Shown here in pieces: positions 3 to 54,099 of a stretch of 64,000 nt of DNA. The position numbers and the translations under genes are program-made. Position 1 is the first letter of the stretch. Each line of letters begins with the position of its first letter. Source of the DNA: Sacculina carcini (lineage: Eukaryota; Arthropoda; Thecostraca; Sacculinidae). The stretch spans positions 1,831,795 to 1,895,794 of the forward strand of contig OU696595.1 in assembly GCA_916048095.2 (NCBI GenBank), in the 5' to 3' direction. The notes under the pieces are model-generated. The model searched no databases and was not told the origin of the DNA. It saw only the letters and a list, made by a program, of their open reading frames with translations.

Positions 3-191
3 CAGCAAATTCAGCAGTTCAGAGGCAGTTGTTTCTTGTGTGATGGACCTCATATGGCTCGAATGTGTCCAAAAAGACAAGCAATTACGTGCTACAATTG
101 CGGGAAAAAGGGACACATTTCGCGACAGTGCCGTCAGGGAAACGGTTCAGGAGTAGCTGGTGCGCCAGCAGCTACTCCAAGCAATCAGTGA
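3..191 (+). CDS. Gag C-terminus with two zinc knuckles (partial)
   Basis: This is the 3' end of the gag frame, open from the window start to TGA at 189-191. It carries two CCHC-type knuckles: a variant C-x2-C-x3-H-x4-C starting near 30 and a canonical C-x2-C-x4-H-x4-C at 90-131 (CYNC..H....C). Such knuckles bind the element RNA in nucleocapsid. The pol frame overlaps it in the -1 register from 44 onward, and a frameshift signal lies in the overlap. The N-terminal capsid part is outside the window. Confidence 0.8.
   Translation, partial: QQIQQFRGSCFLCDGPHMARMCPKRQAITCYNCGKKGHISRQCRQGNGSGVAGAPAATPSNQ
137..178 (+). promoter_or_regulatory. -1 programmed ribosomal frameshift signal (gag to pol)
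   Basis: The heptamer GGGAAAC at 137-143 is in the X XXY YYZ register of the gag frame (codons GGA 138-140, AAC 141-143). A 6-nt spacer (144-149) follows, then a perfect 10-bp stem, 150-159 paired with 169-178, with a 9-nt loop. Gag stops at 189-191 and the pol frame lies exactly at -1. All three parts of a retroviral-type -1 signal are therefore present in the right order and spacing. Function is inferred, not tested. Confidence 0.85.
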
Positions 192-1990
192 AGGCGCCCA
201 TCCAACTGCCAATCGTCGAGGCAAAACTCTCAGGTGAGACGATTCACGCACTAGTCGATACTGGTTGTTCTGGGGCTATTGTTCGGTCACACCTTGTTAA
301 TTGCATCGCAGGCAGTAGTTATTTAACGGCTTTTGACGGACGAAGGGTAGAGTGTCGTGGCACGGCTGTGATTGATATCGAGATATCTGGAAAATGTCTA
401 AGAGTGTGTGCTATGGTCGTTGATAATATTGTGAATGATGTCGACCTTGTGATTGGGATGGAGGTAATCGAGAAGATTGGTGGTGTTTTTGTGTGTGGCT
501 CTCAAGTCAAATTTGGCTCAAATGACAATGTTGCAAGCGCTGCGGTTTCCAAAAGTGATGAAGTGCAATGCTGTGCTAAACGGAGACTGGAGATCACTGA
601 TCCGGACTTCACCGCTGTGTTCGATGGTGACAAATGGGAAGTGGAATGGGTGGTGAAAGCAGGTGAACCATTCTTGTCAAAAACAGTGGGTTGTTACAAC
701 AAGACAGTGACTGAAGATATCCGTGGTGAATTTGACACCGAGGTGCAGCGGTGGATTAATGAAGGAATTCTTGTTCCATGGACTGATTCAGACTGCACAG
801 GCGTACTGCCACTCATGGCAGTGGTACAGCCCACTAAAAACAAAGTGCGACCAGTGCTGGACTTTCGAGAGTTAAATGCATTTGTCAGTAGCCACACGGG
901 CGACGAGTTTATAGATGTGTGCGGAGAGAAGCTGAGGAAGTGGAGGCGCATCGTTGGACCAGCTTCACTCGTTGATTTGAAGTCCGCGTATTTGCAGGTG
1001 CATATCGCCCCGAATTTATGGAAGTACCAGCTGGTGAAATATAATGACCATGTCTTCTGCTTGACTAGACTGGGATTTGGACTGTGCTCCGCACCGAGAA
1101 TTATGACTCGAATAGTACGCACTGTTCTGAGTCAGTCGGAAATAGTCAACAAGAGCACGGATTCATACATCGATGACATTATCGTATGCGAATCGGCTGT
1201 GTCCGGCAGGGAAGTCGTCGACCATTTAAACAAATATGGCCTGCAAGCGAAAGATCCGGTGTCTATAGAGGGAAGTGCTGTGTTGGGTCTCAGATTGAGT
1301 AAAGACAATCGTGGTCGTGTTGTGTTTCGCAGGGGCAATGCAATTCCATCCGTCTCAGACAACATGACGAAGCGTGATATATTCTCGTTGTGCGGAAAAA
1401 TGATCGGGCATTACCCAGTTGCTAGGTGGCTAAGGATTGCCAGTAGCTACATAAAACGTCATACCGATGGAATACAATGGGACAGTGCGGTTAGCGATTT
1501 TGTTATGCAGATGATGGCTGATATGGTCCAAAGAGTGAGATCTGATGATCCGGTTGGTGGAAAATGGCATGTTTCTGTCACTGACAAAGGTGTCGTGTGG
1601 TGCGATGCGAGCAGCATTGCAATGGGTGCAGCAGTGGAGATTGAGGGCCACATCGTTGAAGATGCTGCTTGGCAAAGGAAAATTGATGATGTACATCATA
1701 TCAATGTCGCGGAACTTGATGTAGTACTGAAAGGTGTGAACATGGCGGTGAAATGGCAATTGAAGGATATTGATATTCGCACAGACTCTGCAACAGTAGC
1801 CGGCTGGGTGAGCACAGTGATCGACAGGGAAAGAAGAGTGAAGACAAAGGGTGCAGCGGAGGTCTTGATCAAGAGAAGATTGGGAATTTTGAGCGATCTC
1901 ATTGCAGAACTTGGTTTGAAAATATCCGTCACGAGTGTTCCGACCACGCAGAATAAAGCTGATGAACTGACTCGCGTGAAAAAGGGATGA
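143..1990 (+). CDS. Pol: aspartic protease, reverse transcriptase, RNase H
   Basis: This is the -1 frame relative to gag, so it should be made as a Gag-Pol fusion. The protease active site D-T-G is at 257-265. Reverse transcriptase shows the LDFREL box near 860 and the catalytic YIDD at 1166-1177. RNase H has its first acidic residue in CDAS at 1604-1606. The frame closes with TGA at 1988-1990, just after RNase H, and the same frame resumes at once into integrase. The TGA is probably a single inactivating mutation; readthrough cannot be excluded. Confidence 0.88.
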   Translation, partial: RFRSSWCASSYSKQSVKAPIQLPIVEAKLSGETIHALVDTGCSGAIVRSHLVNCIAGSSYLTAFDGRRVECRGTAVIDIEISGKCLRVCAMVVDNIVNDVDLVIGMEVIEKIGGVFVCGSQVKFGSNDNVASAAVSKSDEVQCCAKRRLEITDPDFTAVFDGDKWEVEWVVKAGEPFLSKTVGCYNKTVTEDIRGEFDTEVQRWINEGILVPWTDSDCTGVLPLMAVVQPTKNKVRPVLDFRELNAFVSSHTGDEFIDVCGEKLRKWRRIVGPASLVDLKSAYLQVHIAPNLWKYQLVKYNDHVFCLTRLGFGLCSAPRIMTRIVRTVLSQSEIVNKSTDSYIDDIIVCESAVSGREVVDHLNKYGLQAKDPVSIEGSAVLGLRLSKDNRGRVVFRRGNAIPSVSDNMTKRDIFSLCGKMIGHYPVARWLRIASSYIKRHTDGIQWDSAVSDFVMQMMADMVQRVRSDDPVGGKWHVSVTDKGVVWCDASSIAMGAAVEIEGHIVEDAAWQRKIDDVHHINVAELDVVLKGVNMAVKWQLKDIDIRTDSATVAGWVSTVIDRERRVKTKGAAEVLIKRRLGILSDLIAELGLKISVTSVPTTQNKADELTRVKKG

Positions 1991-3031
1991 TTAGCCAAAG
2001 CTGGAAATGCCGTCAAAAGCGGCTGTGAACATGACAAAGAAGACAGTCATATATGTGCAATGACTGCAGATGAAATTCGGCAGATGCATGGCATGCATCA
2101 CATGGGCGTAGACAGGACTCTTTTCTTAGCCCGACAAGCGGACCCTAGTGTGTCACGCGACGCTGTGCGGCGAGTGGTGAGAGCCTGTGAGCGGTGCCAA
2201 TCCATTGATCCCGCTCCTTCACGTCATGCTGCAGGACATCTTAGTGTGAACGACGTGTGGTGCAGACTGGCCGTGGATGTGACCCACTATGAACACCATC
2301 AGTACTTGTCGATTGTCGATTGCGGACCAGGTAGATTTTCTGTGTGGCGTGAGCTTCGGTCTGAGACAGCGGAGCAGGTATGTAAGCATCTGGATGAAGT
2401 TTTCCGAGAGAGAGGACCACCTCGTGAGCTGTTAATGGACAACGGGAGAGCATTTCGTTCCAGAGAAATGCAGGAGCTGCTGGACAAGTGGAAGATTCGG
2501 CCGTTTTACCGCGCAGCCTACCGGCCTAACGGCAATGGCATTGTTGAACGCCACCATCGGACGATAAAAGCGCTCGCCGAAAGAAGTAACATACCACCGA
2601 CTACGGCGGTATACTGGTATAACATGTCTCCGAGGGTTGGTGTGGAGGAATCTTCAGTGCCCCATCGCAATGTACACAAGTATGAGTGGCGAAATACATT
2701 TGTAGAATGCACTGTCGATAATGATTCGGAAGAATGTGCTGTTCACATCGGCGAGGAAGTGTGGGTAAAACCACCAGATCGGAAGTGTACTTCGCAGTGG
2801 ACCCGTGGTACTGTAACGGGGGTGAACTCGTCAAATAATGTGTCGGTGTATGGTGTCCCTCGTCACATATTGGACTTGAGACCTGTGGTCATTCCGGCTG
2901 ACGAAGAGAACGGTGATCACTCTGAGGCCACCGAAACACCAACTTCGGAACCTCCCATCAGGCAAAGCCCTAGACGAAGTGTACGAGAAAGACTACCTCC
3001 GGTCTGGATGAATGATTACGTGTCCGAGTGA
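1991..3031 (+). CDS. Integrase domain of the same Pol
   Basis: Same frame as the upstream pol segment, after the TGA; the first ATG is at 2063. An HHCC zinc-binding domain precedes the catalytic core. The core has D (2276-2278), D (2438-2440) and E (2546-2548) with 35 residues between the last two, the DD35E signature. The C-terminal region (VWVKPP and following) resembles the chromatin/DNA-binding tail of Ty3-type integrases. The ORF ends at TGA 3029-3031, 19 bases before the LTR. Without passing the TGA at 1988 no integrase would be fused to RT. Confidence 0.88.
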   Translation, partial: LAKAGNAVKSGCEHDKEDSHICAMTADEIRQMHGMHHMGVDRTLFLARQADPSVSRDAVRRVVRACERCQSIDPAPSRHAAGHLSVNDVWCRLAVDVTHYEHHQYLSIVDCGPGRFSVWRELRSETAEQVCKHLDEVFRERGPPRELLMDNGRAFRSREMQELLDKWKIRPFYRAAYRPNGNGIVERHHRTIKALAERSNIPPTTAVYWYNMSPRVGVEESSVPHRNVHKYEWRNTFVECTVDNDSEECAVHIGEEVWVKPPDRKCTSQWTRGTVTGVNSSNNVSVYGVPRHILDLRPVVIPADEENGDHSEATETPTSEPPIRQSPRRSVRERLPPVWMNDYVSE

Positions 3032-3050: not shown

Positions 3051-3487
3051 TGTGGTTTTGATATATTATCTTGTCATATTGTTGTAGTTGAAGGTTTTCG
3101 TTATGTGCATGTGTGTGTGCATGTGTGCGTGTGTGCGTGTGTGCATGTGTGTGTGTGCGTGTGTGTGTGCTTGTATTTGCTGGCGTAGTGTTCCGCATCG
3201 TGTATGTACGTCTGTGTGCGGGTGTATGTTTGCACAATGCACTCGTTGCAAGGTGCTGACGAGGTATCAGGTGGCAGCGATGCGTTTGTTTATCAAGTGT
3301 CGTGTTGACGGGAGACAGTGCGGTGTTGAATCTCGGCGTGAAGAGAGAAGTGTGTGCGAGTGCGGTGGAGATATCGTTGTGATACGGATATTGTATTTTA
3401 ACTGTGTAGTTTGTGTTGCTGGCTCAGTGGAGTCTGTGTTTACATTGTGCATTTGTGTTCACCATTACTTCAATATATTCAACCACA
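3051..3487 (+). repeat. 3' LTR
   Basis: It begins TGTGGTT and ends AACCACA, a 7-bp inverted terminal match with canonical TG...CA ends. It follows the polypurine run at 3042-3050. It is 437 bp and includes a TG-rich stretch near 3100-3170. The interrupted LINE coding frame starts at the next base, which fixes the 3' boundary. The 5' LTR is outside the window, so LTR-LTR identity and the target-site duplication cannot be read. Confidence 0.85.
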
Positions 3488-5640
3488 AATTCATTAAAAT
3501 CTAACTCTGCTGGTCATGATGAAATTCCTGCATCTATTTTGAAGCGGATTGCTATTCACATAGCCACTCCTCTGAGTCACATAATAAATTTGACTTTGTA
3601 CAAGGGTGTCTTCCCGGATAAGTTGAAGATTGCTAAATCTCTACCCTTACATAAATCGGGTGTGAAATCTGATGTAAATAATTATAGATTAATATCGATT
3701 CTACCAGTTTTCAGCAAAATTTTCGAAAAAACAATCGCAAAAAGATTGACTGATTATTTAGAAAAAAATGGCTTATTAACTAAATCTCAATTCGGGTTCA
3801 GGAAAAACCGCTCAACTGAAACAGCCCTTCTTCATTTTGTATCTGAAATTAACAATAAAATGGATAATAAAATGCATGTGGCTGCCGCATTTCTGGATAT
3901 ATCAAAGGCGTTCGACTCATTAAATCACAATATACTATCGAAAAAGCTACAAAATATTGGAGTGAGAGGTAATGCTCTCAAATTGCTGAATAGTTATTTA
4001 TCTAACCGATTTCAATATGTAACATGCAATAATGAAAGTTCTAATCAAAAAATTATCAGACATGGTGCCCCGCAGGGCTCCATATTAGGGCCCATATTGT
4101 TCTTGATCTACATCGATGACATTGTTAATTGTGCTGATGCACACTTCACAATTTATGCAGACGACACAAGTATTGTAATCTCGGACAGAAATATACACAA
4201 TCTACATGCTAAACTTTCTTCAGTGTTAGACAAAATCTACAATTGGATAAAAGTTAACAAGCTGAAACTAAACGTAAAAAAGACACAGTTAATGTTATTC
4301 CAAAATCGATCGTTGTCACATTGTATAGGTGCAGTAAAGGTGGATGGTGAAATTATTCAGAGAGTACATGCAACCAAATTTTTGGGTGTAACAGTAGATG
4401 ATAATTTAAATTGGAAAGATCACATTGACTCGCTCTCTACAACATTATCGAAAATAGCTGGAATCATCTACCGTACGAGATACAGTTTAACACAGGATGC
4501 GCTTTTGTCATTATACTATTGCTTATTCTATTCCAAATTAATCTATTGTATTTCAATTTGGGGATGTAAATGGCCTTCATTTACAGAAAAATTGAGTGTT
4601 GTACAAAAGCGCATGCTACGGATAATGTCGTTCATGAGAAGAGCAGAAACTACCAAAAAAGTATTTAGTGAACTTAAAGTACTCAAAATGAAGTATGTAC
4701 ACAAATTTTTCCTATTACTAAGGGTGTTCAGATCAATGAAGTGTAACGAAAGTATATTTCACGTACAGAGGCATCAACAATCCACGAGAAGGAACAACCT
4801 TGACATAAAAATTCCGAGCTACAGAACATCACTGTAAAAAAACTCTATTATATATCGTGGACCAGAAGTTTGGAACTCCTTACCCAACTGGATAAAATCC
4901 CAATGCTACTTCATGTCAGTTGACACATTCAAACGATATATTAAAAAACACCTCTATACTTTGCAGAGCGGAGAGTGACAAATCTGGGTATAGCAAGTTA
5001 ATTGGGACATTAGGTATGTTGTTGGGTATTGAGTTGCGTCTTTCTTTCCGCCTTGATATTGTCTTATAATAATATAATTTGTCCTGTACGTGAGATTAAG
5101 TGCTTGTTGTGTGTGTTATTGTTGTTGTGTATGTTATTGTTGTACTCGTATTTGCGTATGTGTACGTACGAAGGTGATTGTATGTATGTAAGTGCATGCT
5201 GCTGGGGGTATTTGGTGTGAAAATATATGTGTGTGGCTTTCGTGTGAGGAAATATAAATTTTAATGTGCTAGCAAATATGCGATAAACGTCGGGAATTTT
5301 GTCACTTTCCCCATTTTGTCTCTTTTTTCACTTTGATTAAATGTATATGAAAGTTGTGAATATATGGCTACATAAGCGAGATTATTATGATATGAATGGT
5401 TATATAGGTGATGATATATGCGGATAATTTTTTGTGTGTCTAAATGTGTCCGTTTATTTTATCTGTTTATGTTAACTGTTAACGTTTGACAATATTTCGC
5501 TGTATCACGTTCAATTATTTATCAATGCCTGTCTAAAAGTCCGCTTGACAGGCACTAGCCTAATGTTTTGAGTTGAATTTTGCAATGTTATTGTTTGATG
5601 GAATTGGCAATAAACTCAATAAACAATAAACAAAACAATA
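3488..5640 (+). mobile_element. LINE A (CR1/Jockey-like), RT 3' half and 3' UTR
   Basis: The RT ORF runs 3488-4837 with fingers, palm and thumb: NSAGHDEIP near 3507, the GAPQGSILGP box near 4060 and YADD at 4154-4165. One in-frame TAA at 4835-4837 is followed in the same frame by the usual C-terminal tail to TGA near 4978. A 3' UTR of about 660 bp ends in an AATAAAC-type tandem tail around 5610-5645. A hairpin (CCTGTC...GACAGG) lies at about 5527-5552. The 5' half is missing because the LTR element interrupts it. It is a dead copy. Confidence 0.85.
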
Positions 5641-5644
5641 AACA

Positions 5645-5925
5645 CATACAGACCAGAGCAGTTAGGGATATCAAGAAGTATAGTTTCCGAATAGGACTGT
5701 AGATGCATGCAATAACCTATATAGGGAAATTGTTCAATGTAGCAGCGTGAAAGAATTTAAACGTAGGTTAGACCAATGTTGGCTGGGAGACAGGACAGCT
5801 CGAGCTTAGCTCATCTCCTGCATTATACAACTCGGTGAGTACACACATTGACCCATTACATTACATTGACACATTTATACCGCGTTTTTCACCCGAGGGT
5901 CTCAAAAGCGCTCACACACATGCAC
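5645..5925 (+). mobile_element. LINE B 3'-terminal fragment
   Basis: This encodes the C-terminal motif of LINE family B (KYSF..R...W, then DRTARA followed by a stop) and is similar to 56800-57000 in this window. It ends in a tract that includes a short module at about 5853-5920 (CCCGAGGGTCTCAAAAGCGCT) followed by CA-rich repeats. Only the 3' end remains, as expected of 5'-truncated retrotransposition. Confidence 0.6.
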
Positions 5926-6048
5926 ACACTAAAATTAAATTATTATTTAAAAAAAATATTATTATAAAAAATTATTATTGTAAAATTATGGAGAGAATTA
6001 TACGAAGAGTTTGGGTGTGATTTTTGGAGAATAATAACATATTGTCAT

Positions 6049-9000
6049 CGAGACAGTTTATGATGAGCTTGGCGAGTCGGTCTGCACTTCTGGGGATGAC
6101 GCTGAAGCCCGACGAAACGTGGCTGTCGACGGTGCTGTTTGAGTACAGCAAGGCCTACCACTTCAGGGGCGCCGCCGTCAGCTCTTCGTTGAAGCGGGCT
6201 TCACGCGTGAACTCCGAAAGTAACGACGGGATCAGGACTTTCTCTAACAGGGTTTCGTCTCTGTTTTCTTCAGGCGCGACTGTGGCCGGTGTCGACTACT
6301 TCCCAAATGCTGCTTACCTGCTGACTCTGATCGAGTGTTCGGATGTACTATATGATGAATTTTGTGATTCATGGACCGAGGATGATGTGTGCGCGCTGCT
6401 TTCTGTTCCAGCCTGTGTCGGGGGCTTACCTGTTATGCTCCTAAGCGATTTTCGCTTCCGAGGCAAAACGGACTCGCTCACTGACTGCGTGTCGTGGCTG
6501 TCTTTTGTTGCACACACAGACCGTGACCTGTTCTCTTCAATCTCTCGTCTGATTGACTTGGCACCATCACCTAGGCGTGATCTAGAACTTCTGCTCAACC
6601 CATTTGCACTCAACCTAGGTGTACCTACCGTTGATTGTGCGCAACCCTGACATAGAGAATTTGTTTTCCATTCAATCAGCACAACAGAGGAAAGAACTGA
6701 TTACTGACCTGCTCACCATCACTCCGTTCAACCCGAGAGTCGCTGCCCACCTTTTTAAGTTGTCCAACGTCGCGCTCAGCGATAAGGTGGTCGGACAGTA
6801 TAGCACATCCCGTACTGTCCGGCAGACTCTCGAGCGGAGTGAGGGAGCCGACATTTCCGAGACGGACTTCCGTCAAATGGTGGCTGCCATGGACGAGGGC
6901 TTGATTACGTACATGCGAACGAGGTTGAACCATAGTGACTCCCAGAGTATTGAGGCCGTGCTCTTGCACCCAGTTTCGTCGTGTAGCAACACAATCGCAC
7001 AGTCTCTACGAGAGCAGTCGTGGGGAGGACCATGGAGGGGGTCAACATGCCGTGCACCACGGAACCATGTCTCCTTGCAAGGTGGGACTCTGAGGTGATC
7101 GATCCCAGCCGGTCAATACTGATCACAGTCGACCAATCTGACAACAAGTTGTCCACACGTAGGCCCGCACAAACCGTACGTCGGCTCTTTAACAACAATG
7201 AGGACGCGTCGGTCAAATTTGGCCATCATCGACAGCACGTCCATGGTATCGTCCCTCAAGCAAATCACCGACATGCTGTCCTGGGTCGTTGGCGACAACT
7301 CTCACCTCGCGACATTACTACTCACCATGTGCTCAGAGAAAACGACAGTGAGCATCACAGACCTGATGAAAGTCACGCGCAAGGTGGTCGGTGGCTCGGT
7401 ACAACACAGATTACTTGACGACTCCTCCTCCCACGGTGCAATGATCAACTCATTGTACAACTTCTGTACTCATTGCACCGTGGTGACTGATACCGCCATC
7501 ATGTTCGCCAAGCAATCAACCGATTACACGCTGTGTTTCCAGGCGTCGATATTGTGCGGCCTGTCTAGACTCTGTCTATTGGAGGCAGAAAACGTTGACA
7601 CACGGGGGAAGTGGGCGCTCAGTTTCAACTGCCCGGAGTGCACCATTGAGGTTGGCAGGTCGAGCTTTGACCTCCCAGGACCACCTAGTTATTCTGGACT
7701 TCCACTCGGCATGCAGGTGACGGAGATCGCTGTGAGCGGAACTGATAACACTGAGGACCGTGAAATTGTAGACGCCAGCGTTGGTCTAGCGTACTACATG
7801 GACCTGGATACATGCATCCATGGTATGGCACTCTACCTGATCGAGCAGGTTGGAGAAATACCGCGAGCTGTATCTTTGATCAGTCGACTGTCGTCATTTG
7901 CCGGTGAGGAGTCACCCATGAATCAGTTCTCGAGAGCTGCTGTGATGAGCGGACTCAAGCACCCGCTCCTTCAGGTGACTAACCGATCAGGTGGAACAGC
8001 AGTGACCCGCATTGCGGCATCCTTAACCCGACGCATCCTTCGCCTGTTTTCGGAGCCTAGCAAACTCCTTAACTACTTGTTCCTGTCATCCCATTACACA
8101 TCGGATCGTTTCTGGTGCTTCTCACAAACAATGGAGACGGTGATTAAGTTACCTGCGAGGGCTGTAAGACCTGGTTGCTTAGAGGACGAAGCCACCTATA
8201 TCCAGGCTGCTCGTTCGCGAGGGAAGACTACAACTACCACAGCGGGAGGTGTGGTCCCACGGATCCGCGCTTTCAACAACCGTTGGCTGAAGTTGGGAGA
8301 AGGGAACCGAAACAGACTGAAGCCGCGACACCAAGAGCCTTTCGCAGATGCGAACATAGCGTGGTGCCTTGGGTCAGAAGAGCGGTGCTCGCATGACCTA
8401 CTGGCGATTCCGATACCTTGCGATCCGGGGAGGTTAGTGAGCTGGCTTGACAGATCTGGAGAGTGTTATGCCGCTCTCTCACACAGGTTCGCGGGTCTCG
8501 CTCCTGGAATAGTTGTCTTACCACCTGGACGAGTGGAAAGTGCGATCGATGTCAACTTAGAGCCGTGTGCAGTGAGGGCGGACTCATGTGGACAATCGCT
8601 GGATGTAGCAGAGACTCTGAGATGCAGCCTCACACAAAAGTTACCAGTGATGAGCTCGACTGATCTGTGTGTCCTGTCAGGTTCTGCAAGGGGTGCAACC
8701 TGGCATATTATGCTTGGTGTTGACAGATCGGTTTTTCTATGGAGAGGCGCTCAATTGCTGGAAGTGTATTCTCAGCCGTAAGTATTGGGTCTACGGGTAC
8801 ACGGGGGACAAGCAATGTGACATCTTAGAGATGATGCCCGCAATCCCGGATTACCGAGGCGCAACTAGAGACCTTGACAGCTGCATAGCGACTGCATCGA
8901 CTTTCGACAGCACGTGGCACTTAGAGTGCTTACAACGGAGCGTGACCATGCGGGATGAGTACCTGGGCGGATTCAAGGACCAGATCTCCATAGAAGACCA

Positions 9001-9406
9001 CTTGATCTCAGAATCGAAAGACTTAGTAAAGTTACTACAGGGCATGACTCGAGAAGGGCTATCTCGACGGAGGGTCTGGACCCTATCTCACACGCACGGT
9101 CGGGGGCGGACTCGTATGATTCGAAGACATCTGCGTGGGCTGGTCCGCAACTTTACCGTCATGCAGTTCCTTTGTGTACCTCGACCCGGTGTTGTGTCCA
9201 TTCGTGTTCATCTGCATATTGCCCTCGGGCGGTACAAGGTTTGCTGGAGGCCGGAGTGCCGAGGCTCGGCGGAGTTTGAGTTGGGTTCGGAGGAATGCGA
9301 TATCAACCGAGACGATATGTTGGTGTTGTGGAGGATGGGGAGAGAGTTGGGGTTTAGGGAGGATGGTGCATTTGCTCGTGCCTTTGGTCGTTTCAATGTC
9401 TGTTAG
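6049..9406 (+). pseudogene. Endogenous viral element: L polymerase, negative-strand RNA virus
   Basis: It resembles the C-terminal half of a Mononegavirales/Jingchuvirales L protein. The conserved post-GDNQ block is recognisable (K-P-D-E-T-W with codons ending at 6122, then EYSK and RG). An SRTVR block follows near 6810. The PRNTase capping motif GxxT (as GSLT) is at 7183-7194 and an H-R dipeptide at 7405-7410. The remainder would be connector/methyltransferase. The copy is broken: a deletion near 6618, frame changes near 7015, 7110-7160 and 8775. No N, P or G gene is seen beside it. It is an old genomic copy and not an active virus. The family is inferred from motif order only. Confidence 0.75.
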
Positions 9407-9695
9407 AGGACCGTTTTGCTTTTTCACCGTAACCTATTGAGTGTGTGCTTTGGGTGTGTTGATCTTGGGCGGCGGGACGAGGCTCTGGTGTGTAGTGAAT
9501 TTGTGTATGTGCTTTTGCTAGGTGTGTGTATGTTGGTTTACAAAAAGTACTTGAGTGTTTTGTTGGCGTGTTTTGGGATGTTATCTGTAGAGCCGAGCTG
9601 TAGAGGAGTTTGTAGCCGCCTCAAACTCCTGGCGGCCAACTTGCCCATCATGGTGGCGTCGCAGGTCAAGGACGTCATCCTCCGCTCAGCGGCGA
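9407..9695 (+). other. Region between viral element and its second fragment; possible LINE ORF1 piece
   Basis: After the stop at 9404-9406 there is GT-rich, apparently non-coding DNA to about 9590. From about 9600 to 9700 the frame shared with the downstream ORF1 encodes a plausible helical segment (SRLKLLAANLPIM...). It breaks where the viral copy starts. It may be the N-terminal part of the LINE ORF1 or unrelated flank; the evidence is only frame agreement. Confidence 0.3.
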
Positions 9696-10252
9696 CCAAA
9701 TGCTACTTACCTGCTGACTCTGATCGAGTGTTCGGATGTACTATATGATGAATTTTGTGATTCATGGACCGAGGATGATGTGTGCGCGCTGCTTTCTGTT
9801 CCAGCCTGTGTCGGGGGCTTACCTGTTATGCTCCTAAGCGATTTTCGCTTCCGAGGCAAAACGGACTCGCTCACTGACTGCGTGTCGTGGCTGTCTTTTG
9901 TTACACACACAGACCGTGACCTGTTCTCTTCAATCTCTCGTCTGATTGACTTGGCACCATCACCTAGGCGTGATCTAGAGCTTCTTCTGCTCAACCCATT
10001 TGCACTCAACCTAGGTGTACCTCACACGGCGGAAAACGTCATCAGGCGTCGTGTGAAGGAGGACCTACCGTTGATTGTGCGCAACCCTGACATAGAGAAT
10101 TTGTTTTCCATTCAATCAGCTCAACAGAGGAAAGAACTGATTACTGACCTGCTCACCATCACTCCGTTCAACCCGAGAGTCGCTGCCCACCACTTGAGTT
10201 GTCCAACGTCGCGCTCAGCGATAAGGTGGTCGGACAGTATAGCACATCCCGT
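9696..10252 (+). pseudogene. Second partial copy of the L-derived viral element
   Basis: It is nearly identical to 6302-6813, with a few substitutions. It keeps about 44 nt (around 10022-10065) that the first copy lacks, plus a 3-nt difference near 9983. The reading frame is open across 9780-10190 and then shifts relative to the first copy. It ends sharply at the shared CCCGT, after which the zinc-knuckle ORF1 of a LINE starts. The left and right edges share only short microhomology with copy 1, so the join is a true chimera in this assembly. Confidence 0.85.
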
Positions 10253-11212
10253 CACATCACGATCTGTGGACGTTGCTCATCCGAACGGCACACCGCTGCT
10301 GATTGCAAAGGGGAATATTTCTGTGTCAATTGCAGGAGCAGCGGTCATGCGTCTTCGTCGCGTGACTGCCCGGAATGGCTGAAGGAGAAGGAGATTTTGG
10401 CCATTCGCGCTGCCCAGCGCTGCAGTTTCGGCGAGGCGCGTGCTGTGTATCGCAGCTCGCATCCGTCGGGCCCGTCCTTTGCCGGCACCGTCAAACTGTC
10501 AGCTCAACCTCCACAGTCTGTCGACTCGTTTCTCGAGAAGCTGACAGTTGGCGATTTTCTCAAGCTGGCTGGACGAATGGGCTTGAAGCTGGTTGTACCA
10601 GAGGCTGACAAACTTGAGAATGAGCCAACACAGGTTGATCGGCGGTCTGAGGGGACTGCCGTGCCGCGGTCGCCAACAGCCGCATCCCAGCGGTCCCAGG
10701 CGTCCGCGACCCAGCGGCCCCAGACGGCCGCAACCCAGCGGCCCAAGGCTGCCGCTCCCCAGCAGCTTGAAAAGGCTGCTGAGCGGCGACCTCAGCGGGT
10801 CGCCGATCGGCCGGTCAACCGGCCGATGGACCGCGCTGGCAAATCGGCAGCGATGCCGGTTAGTCAGGGCGGCAAAAAACCGGCCGCTCAGCAGGCTTCC
10901 AAGCCAGCAGAGCGGTCGTCTCCGAACCGGAGGAAATCCGGAGACTGGACGGTGGTTCAGCACAAGAGCCGCCGTTCGGTCAAGTCAGCCTCGCCGAGGA
11001 GTGACCGGCGAGCATCTCCCGGTCACAAAGCGAGCGCGGTCCCTGCATCTCCGCGCTCGGCGGTTGCTAGCGCACCACCTTCCGCACACGACGGAGCGAC
11101 TACCACCACTGCCATGGAGGTGGAGAGTTCCTCTAAGCGGAAGCTCTCGGCCTCTCCAAGTGGGTCCCCACCTGACGCGGAGAGAGGACGATCGGCCAAG
11201 CGATGCGATTAG
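10253..11212 (+). CDS. LINE ORF1, zinc-knuckle protein (5'-truncated)
   Basis: The frame is open to TAG at 11210-11212. Two cysteine-rich knuckles near 10260-10370 (CGRC...H..DC and CVNC...H...DC) are followed by a long Pro/Ala/Gln/Arg-rich low-complexity tail with repeated QRPQ/AA units and basic serine stretches. Retrotransposon ORF1 proteins of this kind bind element RNA. The natural N-terminus is not seen because the viral fragment abuts the first knuckle. The tail has strong G+C bias compared with the AT-rich flanks. Confidence 0.7.
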   Translation, partial: HITICGRCSSERHTAADCKGEYFCVNCRSSGHASSSRDCPEWLKEKEILAIRAAQRCSFGEARAVYRSSHPSGPSFAGTVKLSAQPPQSVDSFLEKLTVGDFLKLAGRMGLKLVVPEADKLENEPTQVDRRSEGTAVPRSPTAASQRSQASATQRPQTAATQRPKAAAPQQLEKAAERRPQRVADRPVNRPMDRAGKSAAMPVSQGGKKPAAQQASKPAERSSPNRRKSGDWTVVQHKSRRSVKSASPRSDRRASPGHKASAVPASPRSAVASAPPSAHDGATTTTAMEVESSSKRKLSASPSGSPPDAERGRSAKRCD

Positions 11213-14200
11213 GTACCTGTGCTACCTGGTTGTCAGTGTATATGTGCCTTTTTAACGGGATTATTTATTTGTATTTTATTCTATTATATTTATTTTTATT
11301 CCATTTTACAATATAATATTAGAGGTATTAGACCGAATTTTAATGATTTACTGCATATTTTACACTCCCGACAATCATCGATTTTAGCAATACAGGAGAC
11401 TAAGCTTTTAAATTCTTCGTATTTTAGTATTCAGGATTTTAATGTTTTTAGATATGATAATCCCAGCTCGACTATAGCCCACGGCGGGGTTATGCTGGCT
11501 GTTCGCACCAGTGTACCCTGTCGCCGCCTGCATATTCAGTCAGATTAGCAGGTGGTTGCGGTTCGGTGCTGGCTGGGTGGTAGGGAGGTGAGTGTGTGCT
11601 CATTGTACCTGCCGCCTGGTCGCCCGTTCCCAAGGGCTGACGTCGAGTTTTTAATTAGTTCACTTCCACCCCATTTTTACGTGTTAGGCGATTTTAATGC
11701 TCACAGCCCTTTTTGGGGTTGAGATGCATATTGTAGCCGTGGTTATATTATGGAGGATATTTTAACTGTTTTAGAAATTGGTATTTTAAACACAGGCACA
11801 TATACGCATTGCACCATGCCATCGGGAAGCATGTCCGCTCTGGACCTCAGTCTGTGCAGTCCCAGTCTGCAGGCATCCACGAGCTGGACCGTTGAGAATA
11901 GTCTGTATGGGAGTGACCACTTCCCTATATGGATCTGTCTCAATGAGGTACCCAGGTTGGGAACACGACCACCGAGATGGAATTTCAAACGAGCTGATTG
12001 GGTCCGCTATGATTACTTGACACTGGAAGCCATGGGCAACCCCACACTTCGACCCAGTGTCGAAGATTTTACTGAGGCCATTGTCACCTGTGCCAAACAG
12101 AGCATTCCGCGTACGGCATCGCGTCCCCGGTGGCGTCCTGTCCCTTGGTGGACAGACCCGTGTTCTGCGGCGTTGCGAGAGCGACGTCGTTGCTGGGGTC
12201 GCTTCCGGCGCAACAGCACGGTGGCAAACATGCTTTGCTTTCGCCACGCTCGCGCACAGGCTCGATGGACCTTTCGCGAGGCGAAGCGGGCCTCGTGGGT
12301 GTCCTATGTGTCCAGCATTAATCGGCATTGTCCTATATCCACCATATGGGACCGTATAAAGCGCATCTCTGGGAAGTACCGTCCCAATCCACTGCCTTCT
12401 CTGAAGATCAGTGGTGTGGACGTGATAAATCCGGAGCATGTTGCTGACGAAATTCGCCGATATTTAGCGGAGCGCTGTCGTGCAAACGTAGACGACCCTG
12501 ATTTTGCGGCGATCAAACGGCAGTGCGATAGATCACCCGTTGATTTCTCCACCAACTGTCAGCTGCCAATCAACAGCGATTTTTCAGCATCTGAGCTGAG
12601 AACAGCCTTGCGATCGCTTCGCGATGTGGCTGAAGGCCCTGATGAGGTTCACAACCTCATGCTGAAACGTCTGTCGCCCGCAGTGCTGTCCACTTTGCTG
12701 CAGGTCTTCAATGATCTGTGGAATGGTGGACAGTTTCCAGCCTCCTGGCGACGGGCAATCGTGATACCCATCACAAAACAGGGCAAATCGGGTGATCACC
12801 CGTCTGACTATCGCCCTATATCGCTGACCTCCAGTCTCTGCAAACTGTTCGAGAAAATGGTTTGCAGACGGCTGGTATGACTTCTGGAACGCGGTCGGCT
12901 GTTCAATGATGCTCAGTGCGGATTTCGCCAGGGTCGCTCAACGTTAGACCACTTGGTGACCATTGACTCTCGCGTACGTGAAAGTTACGCGCGAGGTCAC
13001 CACGTCGGGGCGATATTCTTTGACATCGAGAAGGCATATGACACCACATGGCGGCATGGTATTCTTCGCAAACTGCATCGCTGTGGTGTCAGAGGCAACA
13101 TGGGGAGTTTCGTACACAATTTCCTTTTGCACCGCACATTCTGTGTGCGTGTGGGGAACTCCTTGTCTCGTCCGTTCGATCAGGCAGAAGGCGTTCCACA
13201 GGGTAGTGTGCCCAGCGTGGCCCTTTTTGCTATAATGATCAACGACATTGACAATCATTTGCCTCCCTCGATCGGACGGTCTCTATTTGTGGACGATTTT
13301 GCCGTATGGTGTTCTTCCCGCAGCACTGTTGCTGTCCAGCGTCAACTGCAGCTAGCGGTGAATAAAATAGAGACTTGGGGAACGCGTAACGGCTTCCGCT
13401 TCTCCACGTTCAAAACGATCGGTGTACACTTCTGCCGCCGTCGAGGTGCCTGCCCTGACATGGAAGTGGAATTGTACGGCAGTGCTGTCTCATTCCAACG
13501 CACGGTTCGGTTTTTAGGGGTCACGTTGGACTCGCGCTTGACCTACACCGACCATATTTCACAGCTGAGAACCACATGTCTAAAGGCACTGAATGTGCTG
13601 AAGACTGTTTCCCGCATGCGGTATGGAGCAGATCGACAGTCCCTTCTCCTTCTGTACCGCTCGTTAGTCAGGTCGCGTCTCGATTACGCAAGCATTGTAT
13701 ATGATTTGGCTTCGGAGTCAGCAAGAAGCCGTTTGAATGTCGTACACCACGCAGGGATACGCATTGCCAACGGCGCGTTTCGCACTTCGCCAATCGTCAG
13801 CCTCCTCGTTGAGGCTGATGAGGCTCCGCTGGCGCTCCGTCGTCAAGAGCTGGGCATGCGTTATTCTTGCAAGCTGACAAGCACCCATGAAAACCCCGCG
13901 TATGACGTGGTATTTTCCCAGCATGTGCCTGAGCAGCAGCACCTTCCAGGACCTCAGTGTTCTGTGCTGTTTTGCAGCAAAATGAAGACACTGCTGGAGT
14001 CATGCGGGATGGGTGCTAACGACGTCCTCAGACAAGAATACACGGCGGAGTCACCCTGGGAATTGGTCACACCCGAGGTTGACGTCTCGCTAGCAGCTCG
14101 GCCGAAACACCGTACAGTGCCCAGTGTGCTTCGCTCAAACACACTGGAGCGAATTCATTCTTACGGACGGTATACTGCCGTGTACACCGATGGATCTAAG

Positions 14201-14599
14201 TCGGCCAGAGGTGTGGGTTGTGCGTTTGTAAGTGGAGGTACGTGCCGCTCGAGCACGCTGCCACCGAGCGCCTCCATTTACACGGCTGAACTTCACGCTA
14301 TCCTGCTGGCCCTGGTTTTTATTCGCTCATCTTCTTTTTCATTGTTTTTAGTTTTATCTGACTCCCTTAGTGCTTTAACTTCATTATCGTCTTTCTCCTT
14401 ACATCATCTTATACAGAGGATTTTTATCTCTCTTGACATCATCCACCACCAGGGCAAGCGTGTAAAGTTCTGCTGGATTCCGGCCCATATTGGTATTTTG
14501 GGCAACGAGCGAGCTGACAGAGCCGCAAAAAGAGCTGCTGAACGAGACTTATATTCATTTTATTTTAACTTTCCCATTCCGTATTCGGACTTTTATCCT

Positions 14600-14600
14600 A

Positions 14601-14678
<78 letters not shown>

Positions 14679-15956
14679 TAGCGACAAGTTCCGCACTTCG
14701 TGCGGTTATGGTCGCTAGTAGATCCGCACTACGTGCGTCTCGAAAATAACAAGTGTAACCACATATAATTCAATAAGTAGTGTAGGCATATAAAATTCAA
14801 GTGTTCATACTCACATTGAGTCGGATACGCGCTTCAACTATTAGTGCCAAAGGCACGCGAATATTGGTATTATGGTTCTGGTATGTTTAACCAGCCTGCG
14901 ACAGAATCGCCGTCTGATCATCAAAATGTTGCACAATCCGTGTGCACGACATTATATAAGTTCGCATCGCACATACAGACGCACACGCATACAAACACTG
15001 GCTGCACACGTGTTCGTTCATAGAATTTCGGCACACGGACACACATACCAATACAAAATGCAAAACGGTATCGTGTGTGCAATTCCTGGGAAGAATTGCA
15101 AAATTATGCAAGAACAGTTCGCAGAAAAGATGTGGTGGCAATCTGGCAGAGAAGTTTCTAGCAATCGCTCAACTGAATGACAAAAGTGTGTAGAATAAAG
15201 GTAAAAAACAAACACCAATAGAAAAATATATGATAATTACAATTACAATATTGGTAAGCTACACATATACACTTGAAAAACGCTTCTGGAACACGCACAT
15301 GCACGACGATGTACTTAATTAAACACTCCATTTTACTACGCACTCTGCACGCCACTGTGCATTTGCAAACGCTCGCTGCAATGCACGTGAGTCATGGTAT
15401 ATCGACACACAGACACACACACCGATATATACATCAGTGTGCCGTTCTGTAAACTGTGTATGTATGTGTGCGTGTGTGTGTACGTGTACCTGTATGTGTA
15501 TGTGTGTGTGTGTGCATCTATGTCAGTGTGTATGTGTGTGTGTGTGTACATGTATGTCAGTGTGTATGTGAGTGTGTGTGTGCCTGAGGTGGCAATCTCG
15601 CATGGGCGTTTCTAGCAATCGCTCAACTGAATGGCGCAGTGTGTAGAATAATGGTGAAAAACAAACACCAGTAGAAAAATAAATGTTAATTACAATTACA
15701 ATATTGGTAAGCTACACATATCCACTCGAAAAACGCCTGTGGAACACACACATGCACGACAATGTACTTATTTAAACACTCTGTTTTACTACGCACTCTG
15801 CACGCCACTGGGCATTTGCAAACGCTCGCTGCAAACGCTCGCTGCAATGCACGTGAGTCATGGCATATCGACACACAGACACACACACCAATATATATAC
15901 ACCAATGTGCCGTTCTGCACACACACTCACACACGTACGTTGAGCTTTATTATTAT

Positions 15957-16030
<74 letters not shown>
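14600..16030. mobile_element. Insertion bounded by (AT)n tracts, with hairpins and tandem core
   Basis: (AT)n tracts at about 14606-14676 and 15957-16026 flank a core of roughly 1.28 kb with no coding potential. The left core edge is a nested hairpin: ACTAGCGAC (14677-14685) pairs with GTCGCTAGT (14711-14719), enclosing CCGCAC/GTGCGG (14691-14705). A second small hairpin follows at about 14724-14736. The core holds two direct repeats of about 300 bp. This resembles Helitron/Helentron-derived or 'pearl'-type elements known from marine invertebrates, but class is uncertain. It lies between RNase H and CCHC of the LINE ORF2. Confidence 0.55.
15130..15900. repeat. Two tandem direct repeats of about 300 bp with (CA/TG) linker
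   Basis: The segments at about 15130-15435 and 15588-15890 share runs such as TCTAGCAATCGCTCAACTGA and ATTACAATATTGGTAAGC and the same order throughout. They are separated by a TG-rich stretch (15445-15580). The second copy has a duplicated GCAAACGCTCGCT element. This forms the tandem core of the inserted element. Confidence 0.8.
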
Positions 16031-16609
16031 CATCGTTTTATCCGTTCTCGCTGGCAGCTCTCCTGGGACGAATGTGGTTCTAACAAATTAAAAGCTGTGA
16101 AGCCCGAAATAGGACATTGGATGTGCTCTTGTCGCCGGAAGAGGTCCGAGGAAGTGGCGCTCTGTCGTCTGCGTGTGGGTCACACGTACGATACGCATCG
16201 CCATCTTCTACTCGGACAACCTGAACCCACGTGCAGCGCATGTAATGCACGTCTCTCCGTGCAGCACATCCTGGTGGAATGCCCATCATTCTCAGAGGCG
16301 CGTCAACGTTTTCTTGAATCCGTTCGGACTATTCACGACGTTCTCGGACAGGAGCAATCGGCGGTCATTGAGGGCCGCATTTTTTAGTTTTTACGGCTTT
16401 TGCTTTTTAGAATTATTAAGTGAGTTTTATTTCTTGACTTTCACATTCATTTTGTTCACTATCACACTTATTTATTTCATCATTCCATTCCTCATGTCCA
16501 TCATTTTAGGGTGTTTGGGCTGTGAATAGACTGGGGGGTGCCGTATGGTCCCAGAGGCCGGTGCACCCCATAAACACAAATAACGAACGAACGAGACACT
16601 TTGTATTTA

Positions 16610-19120
16610 GGGCTAGCAAATCCACCACAACAAATCTGATGAGTTTCTACAAAAAAATAACGATGACAGTGCAAGAAAGATAAGGCTGGGTAGATACAAT
16701 TTACATGGATTTCGAAAAGGCGTTGATAAGGTGTCTCACAAAAAAATTGTTGTTCAAGCTAAGCAAATACGGAGGAATTCAAGGCAATTTACTGAACTGG
16801 ATAAGAGATTTCTTGGAGAATAGAATGATGAGAACATGCTTGAGAGAAAGAAAGTCATCAGGGGCAACAGTCAAAAGCGGAGTACCTCAAGGAACAGTTT
16901 TGGCACCAATCTTTTTTCTGGTGTATATATACGATATAAAAGAAGTTCAACGACACTGTACATATATGAACATGTTCGCTGATGACATAAAGATTCAACA
17001 AACTGTCAAAACAGAAGAAGACTGCAAACGTTTACAACTATATCTGGACAATCCGAACTCATGGATCTGAATCTGACTCTGCCGTAGATTGGAGTGGTGC
17101 GGAGTTGAGTCTTCCTGGTTCAACAGTTATCTGAGCAAACGGACACAAATTGTGCGCGGCGGAACTGTCACACTCCCAATAGAATATGGCGTTCCTCAAG
17201 GCTCTGTTCTCGGCCCGCTGTTATACTTGGTAGCTGTCAACGACCTGATGTGCCACATACCATACGGTCAAATGTTCGCGTACGCCGACGATATTCAACT
17301 AGTCATCACTTCACCCCAGGAACAACTTTCGAGAAATGGAATCTACGAGGCGGAACGTCAGTTGGAGATTAGTTTGCGAGCTGCTACACACTGGTACAAT
17401 GCAAACGGGCTAAAGATAAACGCCAAAAAGACAAAAACCATGGTATGCGGCACGCAATCGTCGCTCTCGAACTTGCCTCTAAGCGCCAGACTCAACAAAG
17501 TCACCGAAATGAAAGTATTGGGCGTCATTGTTGATGAGACTCTCAGTTGGAGCGCGCACGTGTCACACGTCGTCAGATGCTGCAGCGCTGTGCTGGTCAC
17601 AATCGCCAAACTGAGAAAAACGCTCAGCACGCCGATCGTTAAATCCCTGGTGGCCTCCTACGTTTTCTCTAGGCTGCGATACTGTCTTCCGGTCTGGGGA
17701 GGCCTCAGACAACAGGACTCGGAAAGAGTGAGTCGATTGTTGCGATTTGCGGCTAGAGTTGTTTACGACATTGCGAAATACGACCACGTGTCCATAGCGT
17801 TGCGCAACTCTGGCTGGCCCTCCTTCAGTGACATGAGAACAAAACGCGACATTAAGGCTGTCGTATGAGCGCTGCGAGAACCGCCATCTTCCTACAGTTT
17901 GGCTCAGTTGTTCAGCTACAGAAGCAACGTATCGGCAAGGAGCACCAGAGCCACTGCGTCCGGAGAGTTGCAGCTTCCGCGAGTCAGACTGCGACTGCCG
18001 CGAGCATACAAAGCGACAGTTTCGGTGCCGAGCAGCCTACTCTTATAACCGTCTCACATCAGTTTGATTTTGTTTTATTTTTTGCACGCGTACTTTCTTA
18101 GCTCTACAACATAATTTTACATGTATATGCGTATATAAATGTATATATGTATATAATGATGCATGTTTATATATACGATGTGTATGTCTATGTATGTGTG
18201 TATGTATACGTTATGTATATGTGTATATATGTATATTGCCACATCTCTGATCATTTTCACACATCACATCGTTCATGTATATTATTAATACTTGACCATG
18301 AATTTCAAATCTGTTTTCGATTTTTAATTGTTACATGCGCTGAAAAACCACCATGTGGAGCAGTATGTTGTGTGAAATACAAATACAAATACATGGAGTA
18401 AAAAATGGCAAATGAATTTCAATAGAGAGAAATGTTACATCATCAGGTTTGGCAAAGGAATGAGAAGGCCAAATTGGAGATACCGAATAGAAAAATCAGT
18501 CCTGAAAGAGACAGATGTTGTGAAAGATTTGGGAATCAAAATAAATTCGGATCTGACACCAGAAAAACACATAAACGACATAGTCCGAAAAGCAAACTAC
18601 AAAGTAGCAAACATGAAAGTGGCGTTTACATACATGGATTCTGACATATGCAGTATGTGTGTGGAGCCCACACCTGAAAAAAACATATTGAAAAACTAGA
18701 AAAGGTGCAAAGATCAATGACGAAATGGACGCCAGAATTAAGAAAGATTGGACATGAGGAGAGATTGGAGAGAGTGAACTTGCCTACACTCAAAGATAGA
18801 AGAGAGAGAGGAGACATGATAATGATCTACAAGTGTCTTACAGGCAAAGAAGACATCCACGTTGACAAATTATTTTAAATATCAACATCTAAGCGAGGAC
18901 AAGATAAAAAGCTTCTACAAAAGAGGATTCGCAGGGACGTGGAGAAATACAGTTTTCCAAACCGTTGCATCAATCAGTGGAATAATATACCGGCAAACAT
19001 AACAGACCAAAGGACAATAAAACAATTCAAAGAACGTTATGACAACTGGAAGGCGGGACCCACGAGTCTCTGACTCTGTCTCGCCTTGAACAACTCGGTG
19101 AGAAACAACTCGGTGAGAAA
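16610..19120 (+). mobile_element. LINE B copy, interrupted by LINE C
   Basis: Part 1 (16610-17065) covers RT from the TNLMSFY region through YMDFEKA, GVPQGTVLAP and FADD. Part 2 (18398-19120) covers the thumb and C-terminal region (FNREKC, DLGIKINSDL, RRERGD, KYSF). Joined across the insert the frame is continuous (the codon after TGG is AGT). One base is missing near 16726 and stops are present near 18700 and 18878. The 3' end has repeated CAACTCGGTGAGAAA near 19090. Dead copy. Confidence 0.8.
17066..18391 (+). mobile_element. LINE C, 5'-truncated, nested in LINE B
   Basis: The RT fragment 17089-17868 has GVPQGSVLGP and YADD (near 17282), then the thumb and a C-terminal tail in another frame to about 18050. 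A 3' UTR with TATA/TGTA-rich sequence ends in an AAATAC tandem tail. CATGGA occurs at 17060-17065 and again at 18392-18397, flanking the element exactly and marking a 6-bp target-site duplication. It is a clear case of nested 5'-truncated insertion. Confidence 0.85.
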
Positions 19121-26355: not shown

Positions 26356-29123
26356 ATGAGCGACCGTAAAAGCGACGATGGCGAAGATGCGCCTATTTCG
26401 TCGCCGTTACGTGACAGTGATGCCAAATGCCAGCCTTCCAAGCGACAACTAAAGCGACAGCGTCGTCATGAAGCGTATCTGGCGCGCCGACCTGAAATGC
26501 GGCGATTAGAACGCGAGCGGCGCAAGAAACGTCGACAACAATTACAACTATGCCAGGTGAAACCAGTGAAAATCATCTGGAATTTGACGATTTTTTGTGA
26601 ATCACAGCGTATGTTGTATATGAGATATGAAAATTATAATTGTATATATAATAGTTTATATCTCCTCCATTACGCACATATTATCTATCTTATTTCACTC
26701 ATGTGTTTGATTCGTAGTTTTATATTTTATTATTCTCTTTATTGCACTCAAAAGTATATTTGTATATGTATATTATGTGTATTTTATGTATATATGTATA
26801 TTTGTATATGTATTTACGCTTAAATGTGACATTCTGTTGGTTTTGGTGTTTATATATGTACTTTCGTCGATTTGCACTTTGTCCACTTGTTGTTTGCTTA
26901 TTTTGTTGTCTCTTCGTTGACGTCATGCGCGCCCGTGTTTTACAGGCGCTATTGGAAATATATATTTGATATGTCGTGTCATATTTGCGTATGTAAGACA
27001 GATAACAGATGAGACAATTGCCAGTACGAGACGCGCGCCAGTAATTGCCGCGGGGCTGGCTGATCGTCCTCTTGTGGTGCAACACTCAGCAACTCACAAC
27101 AATGCAGACAGTGAAAATGACGACAGTGCGCCGACAATTGTGATTGATTTGTCGTGGTGTGATCACATGAACGACGCCGACCTGGCCAAATGTGCCAAAC
27201 AGGTGACAAAAGTGGTTATTTCTGTCAGACATGCTCAAACATGTCATCTCCACCATGCGTTCTAATGTGTTTTAGCACATTCACCAATTTTATACATTTC
27301 ATTCATCGACTCTTTATTCGAATTTCACCATGTACTTAAACGATAAGGAGCTGAAAAGCCATTTGAAATGGATGCTTTTTGATAAATAAATATATAAATA
27401 CATATTTGTGTGCTGATATTTTTCTAATAGTATTACTCTTCCCTTTCTGTCTGTCTGTATCTATTGATGAGCGAAACCCATGAAGATTGCAGTTGCATGT
27501 AATTTATATAATGTTCACTCTCTCACCATTCAAAGATAGGAAATATAACTACCAAATGAAAAGTTCGGTAAACTATTTTGAATGCCCATTTGACCTTGCT
27601 CATTGATTTTAATAATAAGAACAATAATAACGTTTCAGTTTGTTTTTACGTTTAGTATGTAATATGTGTTTGTGTTTATTTTCTAGCCGATAATTCCACG
27701 ATATTATATTGATGTTATAATTTTTGTGGGCGCATGCCAATTCTGCCGGATATATGGCGCAAATGAGACAAATGTGACGCACTGCTGCGTCGTATTTGTC
27801 AGATTCAGCGATGTTACGCGCTGCAGAGACGTTGTGTCGTGAACGTGCGACTGTGTGTGAGCAGTCTGCAGCCGCGAATCATCAGTATTCTTCAGCGTAA
27901 CTCGGGCTGGGAGGCGTGGCAAATACGACGCACTGCGCTGCATTTCAGCCAGGTTTGTCAGACATTCTTGACGCACGCTGGTTAACATTTAAAGGTTAAA
28001 GGCCTCAAGTGACAGCTGCTACACGGGAAGAAGTCGAAGCTTATGAACACACACAGGTGTGTCCCGTGCAGCTCGCTTCCACCGCAGAACCGACCCTCTC
28101 CACGCTATGTCACCACAAGAACGGAAGACTGATTGACAGAATACATGACACAACTCATGACTGATATCTGGTACCATCATTTACTGCTGGGTGGACAGGG
28201 ACTGTTGGATTATAGAATTCGCCCAAAGAAATTCTCCTCCGCCGGGTTTTGAACCACGGACCTCTCGCTTGTGAGGCGGGTGTGCTAATCACTACACCAC
28301 CGAGTCCAACAGTTTATTTGTATATTTTTATGCATGTGTTTATATGCAATTTGTGTGTGATATTTTAGCAATTTATACACCAAAAATTATGCATTATGGT
28401 TTTTGTTAATCATATATTACAATTGAAGTGAGCAATTTAGAACGTGCACGCTATTTCTTTCTCACCTTGTTGATTGGTCCAATAATAATAATGATAATAT
28501 GGGATGATAATGATAATATCATTGTTTTCTGGCAGATTTTCCCGCACGAGCGTGTTGTGTATTTATCGAGCGAGTCTCCTCATTCACTGGATCAAGTGCT
28601 AGACGGTAGCGTGTATGTGATAGGAGGTCTGGTGGACCACAATCACCTGCGAGGCGTGTGCTTGAGTGGCGCCCAACAGGCTCGCTTTTGTCACGCGCGT
28701 CTGCCAATAGATGAACATGTACGCATGCGGGGTCGTCGCGTGCTCAGTGTGGACACCGTGTGTGAGATCCTGCTGAGACGAGCAGCCGCTGTGAACTGGA
28801 CCACTGCTCTGTGTGCCTCCCTGCCTCCACGAGTCTGCCCTCAACCTATCACAACGCCATCTATGCGGGAAAATGAGGAAACACAAATGACGTCTACTAG
28901 TGAAAATACAGCAGCAGATGGAGATGCGACATTATCAAGTGAAAATGCGCATTTAATCGCGACAGCAGCGACATCTACGACGGAGCCAGAGGAAACCAGC
29001 TGTAATAACGATAAACCAGCTAGTGATATGATGACTCCACAATCTGCTACCTGTTCTCATGGGGACAATGAAGAAATATATCACGATAAATCTGATATAC
29101 CCGGGCCAGATAAATGTGCCTGA
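26356..29123 (+). CDS. TRMT10A: TRMT10-type tRNA (guanine-N1-)-methyltransferase
   Basis: Four phase-0 exons: 26356-26556, 27002-27202, 27803-27952 and 28536-29123 (TGA), 379 codons. The family methylates N1 of purine 9 in tRNA with a SPOUT fold. Exon 1 is a basic N-terminus (KRQLKRQRR, RLERERRKKRRQQ). The SPOUT domain starts at IVIDLSWCDHMND, continues with QRCYALQRR and GWEAWQIR, and holds the hallmark YVIGGLVDHN with the conserved Asp, then LPIDEHVRM and LSVDTVCEILL. The tail after about residue 285 is Thr/Ser/Glu-rich and family-atypical. The exon 2 acceptor (AGACAG|ATAACA) is weak and the least certain junction. A/B paralogy is not resolved. Head to head with PSMD10. Confidence 0.92.
27983..28307 (-). 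mobile_element. tRNA-Val-derived SINE, copy A
   Basis: The head on the minus strand reads GGACTCGGTGGTGTAGTGAT, then an anticodon arm CCGCCTCACAAGCG (CAC in the loop) and a B-box-like GGTTCAAAAC. The body ends in AGCTGCTACACGG... and a TTAACC-type tail. Related copies are at 35287-35625 and 52564-52860. It lies in TRMT10 intron 3, antisense to the gene. Internal promoter boxes are implied by tRNA descent. Confidence 0.85.
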
Positions 29124-52401: not shown

Positions 52402-52563
52402 CTGCGGGCACGCACACATAACACGCACGTGTATTGGCAACAAGCTGGACAGAAAGAATCGGCCAGTTTACAGTGCGACATCAGCGCTCAATTCAACACC
52501 AACACTAAACGTAATAATATTAACTTCACGTGATGAATGTGATCGAGGGACGCCATAAAACGA

Positions 52564-52860
52564 TTTAAAAGTTAAAGGTTTAAGTGACAGCTGCTACACG
52601 GGAAGAAGTCGAAGCTTATGAACACACACAGGTGTGCCCCGTGCAGCTCGCTGCCACCGCAGAACCGACCCTCTCCACGCTATGACGCCACAAGGACGGA
52701 AGACGTATTAGAGAGAGCCACCTCCCCAGAATGCATGACTGTTGGATATCACAGGGACTGTTGTATTATAGAATTCCCCAATGAAATTCTCCTCCGTCGG
52801 GTTTTGAACCACGGACCTGTGGCTTGTGGGCGGGTGTGCTACCACTACACCACCGAGTCC
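52564..52860 (-). mobile_element. tRNA-Val-derived SINE, copy C
   Basis: Head GGACTCGGTGGTGTAGTGGT, body and tail as in copies A and B. An internal deletion of about 45 bp lies in the body (after the GCATGACTG block). The tail is AACCTTTAACTTTTAAA. It lies just upstream (minus strand) of the PPSY tail exons. Confidence 0.85.
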
Positions 52861-52998
52861 AGTGTGTTGGGGAAGATAGAAGAGGAGAGGACGTTAATTT
52901 GCCACTAAAGCGAACCTGCATAGGGATGATGTGCTCTGCCGTAGCCGGGAACAACTCGCTGAGCGAAACGTCGGCCGCTAGATGTCAGCACTGCCGCC

Positions 52999-54007: not shown

Positions 54008-54099
54008 CAGAGGAAGAAAAAAAGGAGTTTCAATGGAAGTTGGTACACGGAAAAATCAAGAAATGGTATCGTATAGCAGCAACGGATGCGAAAGGCACA

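Follow-up and report, generated by a model that had tools for sequence, protein, structure and literature searches.

The stretch at positions 6047-9406 (+) of the Sacculina carcini window (the whole 64-kb stretch of DNA that was analysed, 64,000 nucleotides) raises two connected questions: whether it derives, as the initial annotation had claimed, from the endogenous L polymerase of a negative-strand RNA virus, and by what route such a sequence came to abut a LINE. The evidence supports an L of a nonsegmented negative-strand RNA virus, now broken, lying in retrotransposon-rich DNA. Our main reading, to which we assign a probability of about 0.5, is that a single LINE reverse-transcription event with template jumps made an endogenous mononegavirus L element in the order L, partial L, LINE. 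The features of the locus are as follows.

6047..6620 (+): L fragment, RdRp end with DETW and GGLP, frame 0 (PF00946, E 2.2e-21; 55.7 bits to a bornavirus-size L chain)
6625..7010 (+): L fragment, RdRp end and capping start with the SRT block, frame 1 (PF00946, E 6.3e-9; solved L chains match weakly, at E 0.0017 or above)
7020..7160 (+): short frame-0 stretch between two frame changes (codon frame score, for the most part beyond the training blocks; its open frame, 6987-7415, hit no Pfam family and no L chain)
7150..8690 (+): L fragment in frame 1, made up of the PRNTase (capping) domain carrying GSLT and HR and a C-terminal part without a match (PF14318, TIGR04198; 552 codons open)
8690..9406 (+): probable further L, frame 2 to about 9060, then mixed; TAG at 9404-9406 (codon frame scores)
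9407..9695 (+): unassigned sequence separating the L copies, with frame 2 open; may also be L (weak codon scores)
9696..10252 (+): second, partial L copy, matching 6303-6813 (blastn; PF00946, E 3e-15)
10253..16590 (+): LINE (non-LTR), apparently 5'-truncated, with ORF1 zinc knuckle, endonuclease remnant, RT and RNase H; interrupted at about 14600-16030 (CCHC, Pfam matches)

When the open pieces were each searched separately against Pfam, the element was found to carry the RdRp end of a mononegavirus L followed by the capping domain. Mononeg_RNA_pol (PF00946) matched the piece at 6021-6647 over profile positions 740-953 of 1068 (E 2.2e-21, 75.8 bits against a cut-off of 27) and the piece at 6619-7095 over positions 976-1066 of 1068 (E 6.3e-9, 34.6 bits against the same cut-off of 27), and Mononeg_mRNAcap (PF14318) matched the piece at 7123-8778 over positions 66-239 of 241 (E 7e-27, 94.8 bits against 22.2), the profile positions running consecutively along the element. 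In NCBIfam, TIGR04198 matched 7123-8778 over 8-141 of its 938 positions with E 2.9e-27 and 95.1 bits, below the model cut-off of 185, and no family was returned for the other four of the five pieces. The ordered motifs reported in the initial annotation were all located, namely DETW (6111-6122), SRT (6808-6816), GxxT in the form GSLT (7183-7194) and HR (7405-7410), together with GGLP (6420-6431); the terms ETW block and SRT block are those of that annotation and carry the meaning generally given to them in L. The capping domain thus retains both GxxT and HR. In Borna disease virus 1 L, according to the available text of PMC12350838, GEIT (1073-1076) and HR (1135-1136) serve guanosine binding and RNA linkage in capping, and by order and spacing the GSLT and HR of the element are probably their counterparts. 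The left boundary at 6047 was set by eye where G+C rises, from 0.35 in the AT-rich DNA at 5700-6046 to 0.53 in the block that follows.

A cellular gene was rejected, as L families were the only ones matched above cut-off; the profile search named in the initial annotation as a check returned RdRp and capping families. Chance-level rows, which were discarded, included Oleosin in Pfam (E 0.1, an overlapping frame at 8690-9406) and the structure chains 6h3w and 6hqa. AlphaFold2 run without an alignment gave unusable models (mean pLDDT 31.8 for 7123-8778 and 30.7 for 8654-9403). Protein relatives at E 0.001 were found for neither 7123-8778 (7991 candidates scored) nor 6021-6647 (515 candidates), although the length limits of the search exclude full-length L and the result is therefore no evidence of absence; the RT frame of the neighbouring LINE, used as a control, did find relatives at this threshold, 787 of the 7992 candidates scored. 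Pattern scans of IMG/VR with four pieces gave 0, 9, 8 and 1 fitting stretches, none of them confirmed, and one scan of prokaryote contigs gave 11, none of which was confirmed as a relative.

The element is a fragment of L and not an L gene. The RdRp catalytic core, of which GDNQ is the motif, is absent: the PF00946 match first begins at profile position 740 of 1068, L families were found in none of the six open frames tried upstream (4896 to 6017), and no GDNQ lies near the element, the lone six-frame occurrence in the window being at 60007. Codon scores, whose training set of 801 codons was drawn from these same L blocks and clearly leaves out only 6955-7149 and the part after 8655, place the L frame at 0 to about 6620, 1 to about 7010, 0 to about 7160, 1 to about 8690 and 2 to about 9060, with mixed frames beyond, which amounts to at least four frame changes across the element. 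Pfam also shows the first of these, since its RdRp family matches one piece in one frame and the next piece in another. With the catalytic core missing and the frame broken, no working polymerase or enzyme is expected, and the breaks that had led the initial annotation to call the element a fossil are borne out by the codon scores. It is a non-retroviral endogenous viral element, an L copy in mRNA sense, 5'-truncated.

The C-terminal extent is less sharply drawn. No L family was detected in the pieces tried between 7672 and 9695, the stretch at 8654-9403 matched neither a Pfam family nor a PDB structure, and 9407-9695 matched no family. The codon frame makes it probable that 8690-9406 is L, and the TAG at 9404-9406 may be either the terminus of L or a stop that arose later. 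Of the claim that the element runs from the RdRp end to capping and beyond, the first two parts stand on profile matches, while for the last the evidence consists of the open frame and codon scores.

As to the viral family, the RdRp end scored 55.5-55.7 bits against four solved chains of 1711-1756 aa, 30.5 against that of vesicular stomatitis virus and at most 23.7 against the rest. The four chains, unnamed in the match table, are taken here to be bornavirus L on the strength of their length, which also fits the 1,718 codons of a bat element discussed below. The capping piece reached at most 20.3 bits against these bornavirus-size chains, below the 25.0 bits of the top-scoring L chain outside this group. 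For the second RdRp piece, 6ueb scored 21.4 bits and the bornavirus-size chains 16.1. The chain 6ueb is that of rabies virus L in the available text of PMC12350838, a paper on BoDV-1, and that text contains no code starting with 9n0. On these sequence comparisons the element is placed as Mononegavirales L only, since pieces other than the RdRp end do not separate families; a fair guess, from a comparison set without nyamivirus or other invertebrate L, is the bornavirus-nyamivirus neighbourhood. There was no pointer to a chuvirus placement in this set, which was likewise without chuvirus L.

The initial annotation had ended the element at 9406, overlooking both a further L stretch and its joint with a LINE. 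The blastn alignment of 9696-10252 with 6303-6813 spans 558 columns and contains 7 mismatches and 3 gap openings; the two copies lie in tandem at a start spacing of 3393-3440. Mismatches between them come to about 1.4% (7 of about 510 ungapped columns), which suggests that little time has passed since the doubling. The second copy ends at 10252, abruptly against LINE sequence, and the L continuation past 6813 was not found elsewhere in the 64 kb by tblastn with five pieces at E 0.01.

The LINE lies on the same strand (+) as L and begins inside ORF1, with a CCHC zinc knuckle at 10265-10306 and a match to PF15288 below cut-off; matches to PF14529 (endonuclease remnant, likewise below cut-off), PF00078 (RT, E 8.6e-26) and PF00075 (RNase H, E 9.1e-11) follow. 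Its 3' end (16590) was set by eye and its 5' truncation is read from the start inside ORF1, not from comparison with an intact copy. Organism names accompany three of the 120 relatives listed for its RT frame, two of them spider proteins, from different species, called X-element and the third an uncharacterised protein of a snail, and we liken it to X-element-like LINEs, presumably of Jockey type. About 1.4 kb at 14599-16030, bounded by two (TA)n runs and containing an internal duplication (15131-15449/15585-15917), apparently interrupts its 3' coding part, and two more RT fragments follow close behind it at 16684-17865 (PF00078, E 1.1e-8 and 9e-17).

The L element is thus flanked on both sides in the assembly, by the LINE on the right and by repeat DNA on the left, where two stretches, 5667-5843 and 5841-5930, have further occurrences in the window. 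The former resembles 56799-56974 (69%), which lies just past LINE frames at 54077-56766 with endonuclease and RT matches, and it may represent the 3' terminus of a further truncated LINE beside the L element. Further repeats in the window include an LTR-retrotransposon remnant at 44-3028 (integrase matched above cut-off, protease-like, RT and RNase H domains only below it, plus PF23088 DUF7047), a satellite at 43115-45212 with 13 copies of about 159-bp units and higher-order periods of 330 and 489, and a dispersed repeat of about 320 bp in three copies (27988-28308, 35286-35619 and 52563-52861), 82-86% alike and in both orientations. The presence of RdRp and capping matches amid this retrotransposon-rich DNA upholds the initial view of an endogenous L polymerase.

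The reverse transcriptase of LINEs, as is established for non-LTR retrotransposons, copies RNA from the 3' end. In the proposed event the enzyme would start on LINE RNA and leave it inside ORF1 for L RNA, giving L joined to a 5'-truncated LINE on one strand, with an abrupt end to L; a second jump on the L RNA would then add the larger upstream L copy, 5'-truncated at 6047. Such a series of jumps is consistent with the shared + orientation of L and LINE, which a switch of template from LINE RNA to L RNA would produce, and with the second copy stopping at 10252 against a LINE that begins inside ORF1. It also speaks for this reading that the L continuation was not found in the window, whereas simple insertion of a LINE into an otherwise complete second copy, which was rejected on this ground, would have left that continuation behind the LINE. 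No poly-A was found at the joint between L and LINE, and no target-site duplication stood out from chance: 200 of 1000 shuffles and 284 of 991 random pairs did as well as or better than the best candidate (11 bases with 1 mismatch, 6049/16592), as did 215 of 3000 shuffles for a 7-base match in a narrower zone chosen post hoc. Against template jumping it also counts that 9407-9695 is left without explanation.

Tandem duplication plus LINE insertion with deletion, or misassembly, would yield an identical map. A single L insertion could have been followed by local DNA duplication of a unit from 6303 to about 9695 and then by a LINE insertion with loss of the remaining second copy, and the tandem arrangement of copies differing, besides gaps, by only 7 mismatches fits this; we nevertheless regard it as somewhat unlikely, as it requires three events with deletion of everything beyond 10252, and no L continuation was found in the window. 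That the second copy or the LINE joint was misjoined in assembly gains some plausibility from the richness of the window in microsatellites and repeats, but is improbable given the point differences and gaps by which the second copy departs from a plain repeat of the first. Selection might instead have kept the longest + strand open frame in 6047-9406, of 552 codons, as a domesticated capping-domain protein; 500 base shuffles gave 124 codons on average and never more than 253, and GSLT and HR are retained. The L frame was, however, already open on arrival, so that shuffles are no test of selection, and the frames flanking the stretch are broken, which makes domestication very improbable. Returning to the LINE template jumps, we advance tentatively the fuller version, in which a young integration would preserve the trace of two template jumps by the reverse transcriptase of an invertebrate LINE, the first off LINE RNA onto mononegavirus L RNA and the second within that L RNA.

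The L element is now a decaying fossil. That it still has a function today, such as supplying piRNAs, is possible in principle and is speculation; piRNA-type small RNAs from putative endogenous viral copies are described for starfish, sea anemone and dog whelk in the available text of PMC6085071, the introduction of which has sponge in place of anemone.

L fossils are a record of past negative-strand virus infections, and a joint between virus and LINE could reveal which retrotransposon made the element. In the text available from PMC4865735, L-derived endogenous elements are published from vertebrates to arthropods, and for a bat L element the authors propose insertion by LINE-1, accompanied by a repeat of 9 bp. 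The Sacculina carcini element resembles these endogenous bornavirus-like L elements (EBLL) in being L-derived, but whereas the frame of bat eEBLL-1 is intact over 1,718 codons (PMC4865735), it is truncated, broken and partly doubled and is assigned to no family. With the fossil rhabdovirus L of arthropod genomes (Fort et al., 2012, as cited in PMC4865735) it shares mononegavirus L-derived sequence in an arthropod genome, but its RdRp end gives better scores with the bornavirus-size chains than with those of rhabdoviruses, although for a second piece rabies virus L is the better match. The neighbouring LINE has RT and RNase H in common with X-element-like LINEs, and spider relatives named X-element are among the matches listed, but here its sequence sets in within ORF1 and is joined to viral L. 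The locus is a viral fossil of a recognised kind whose joint with a LINE is unusual and unusually informative; if template jumping did occur, it would document directly the origin of such fossils in animals other than mammals.
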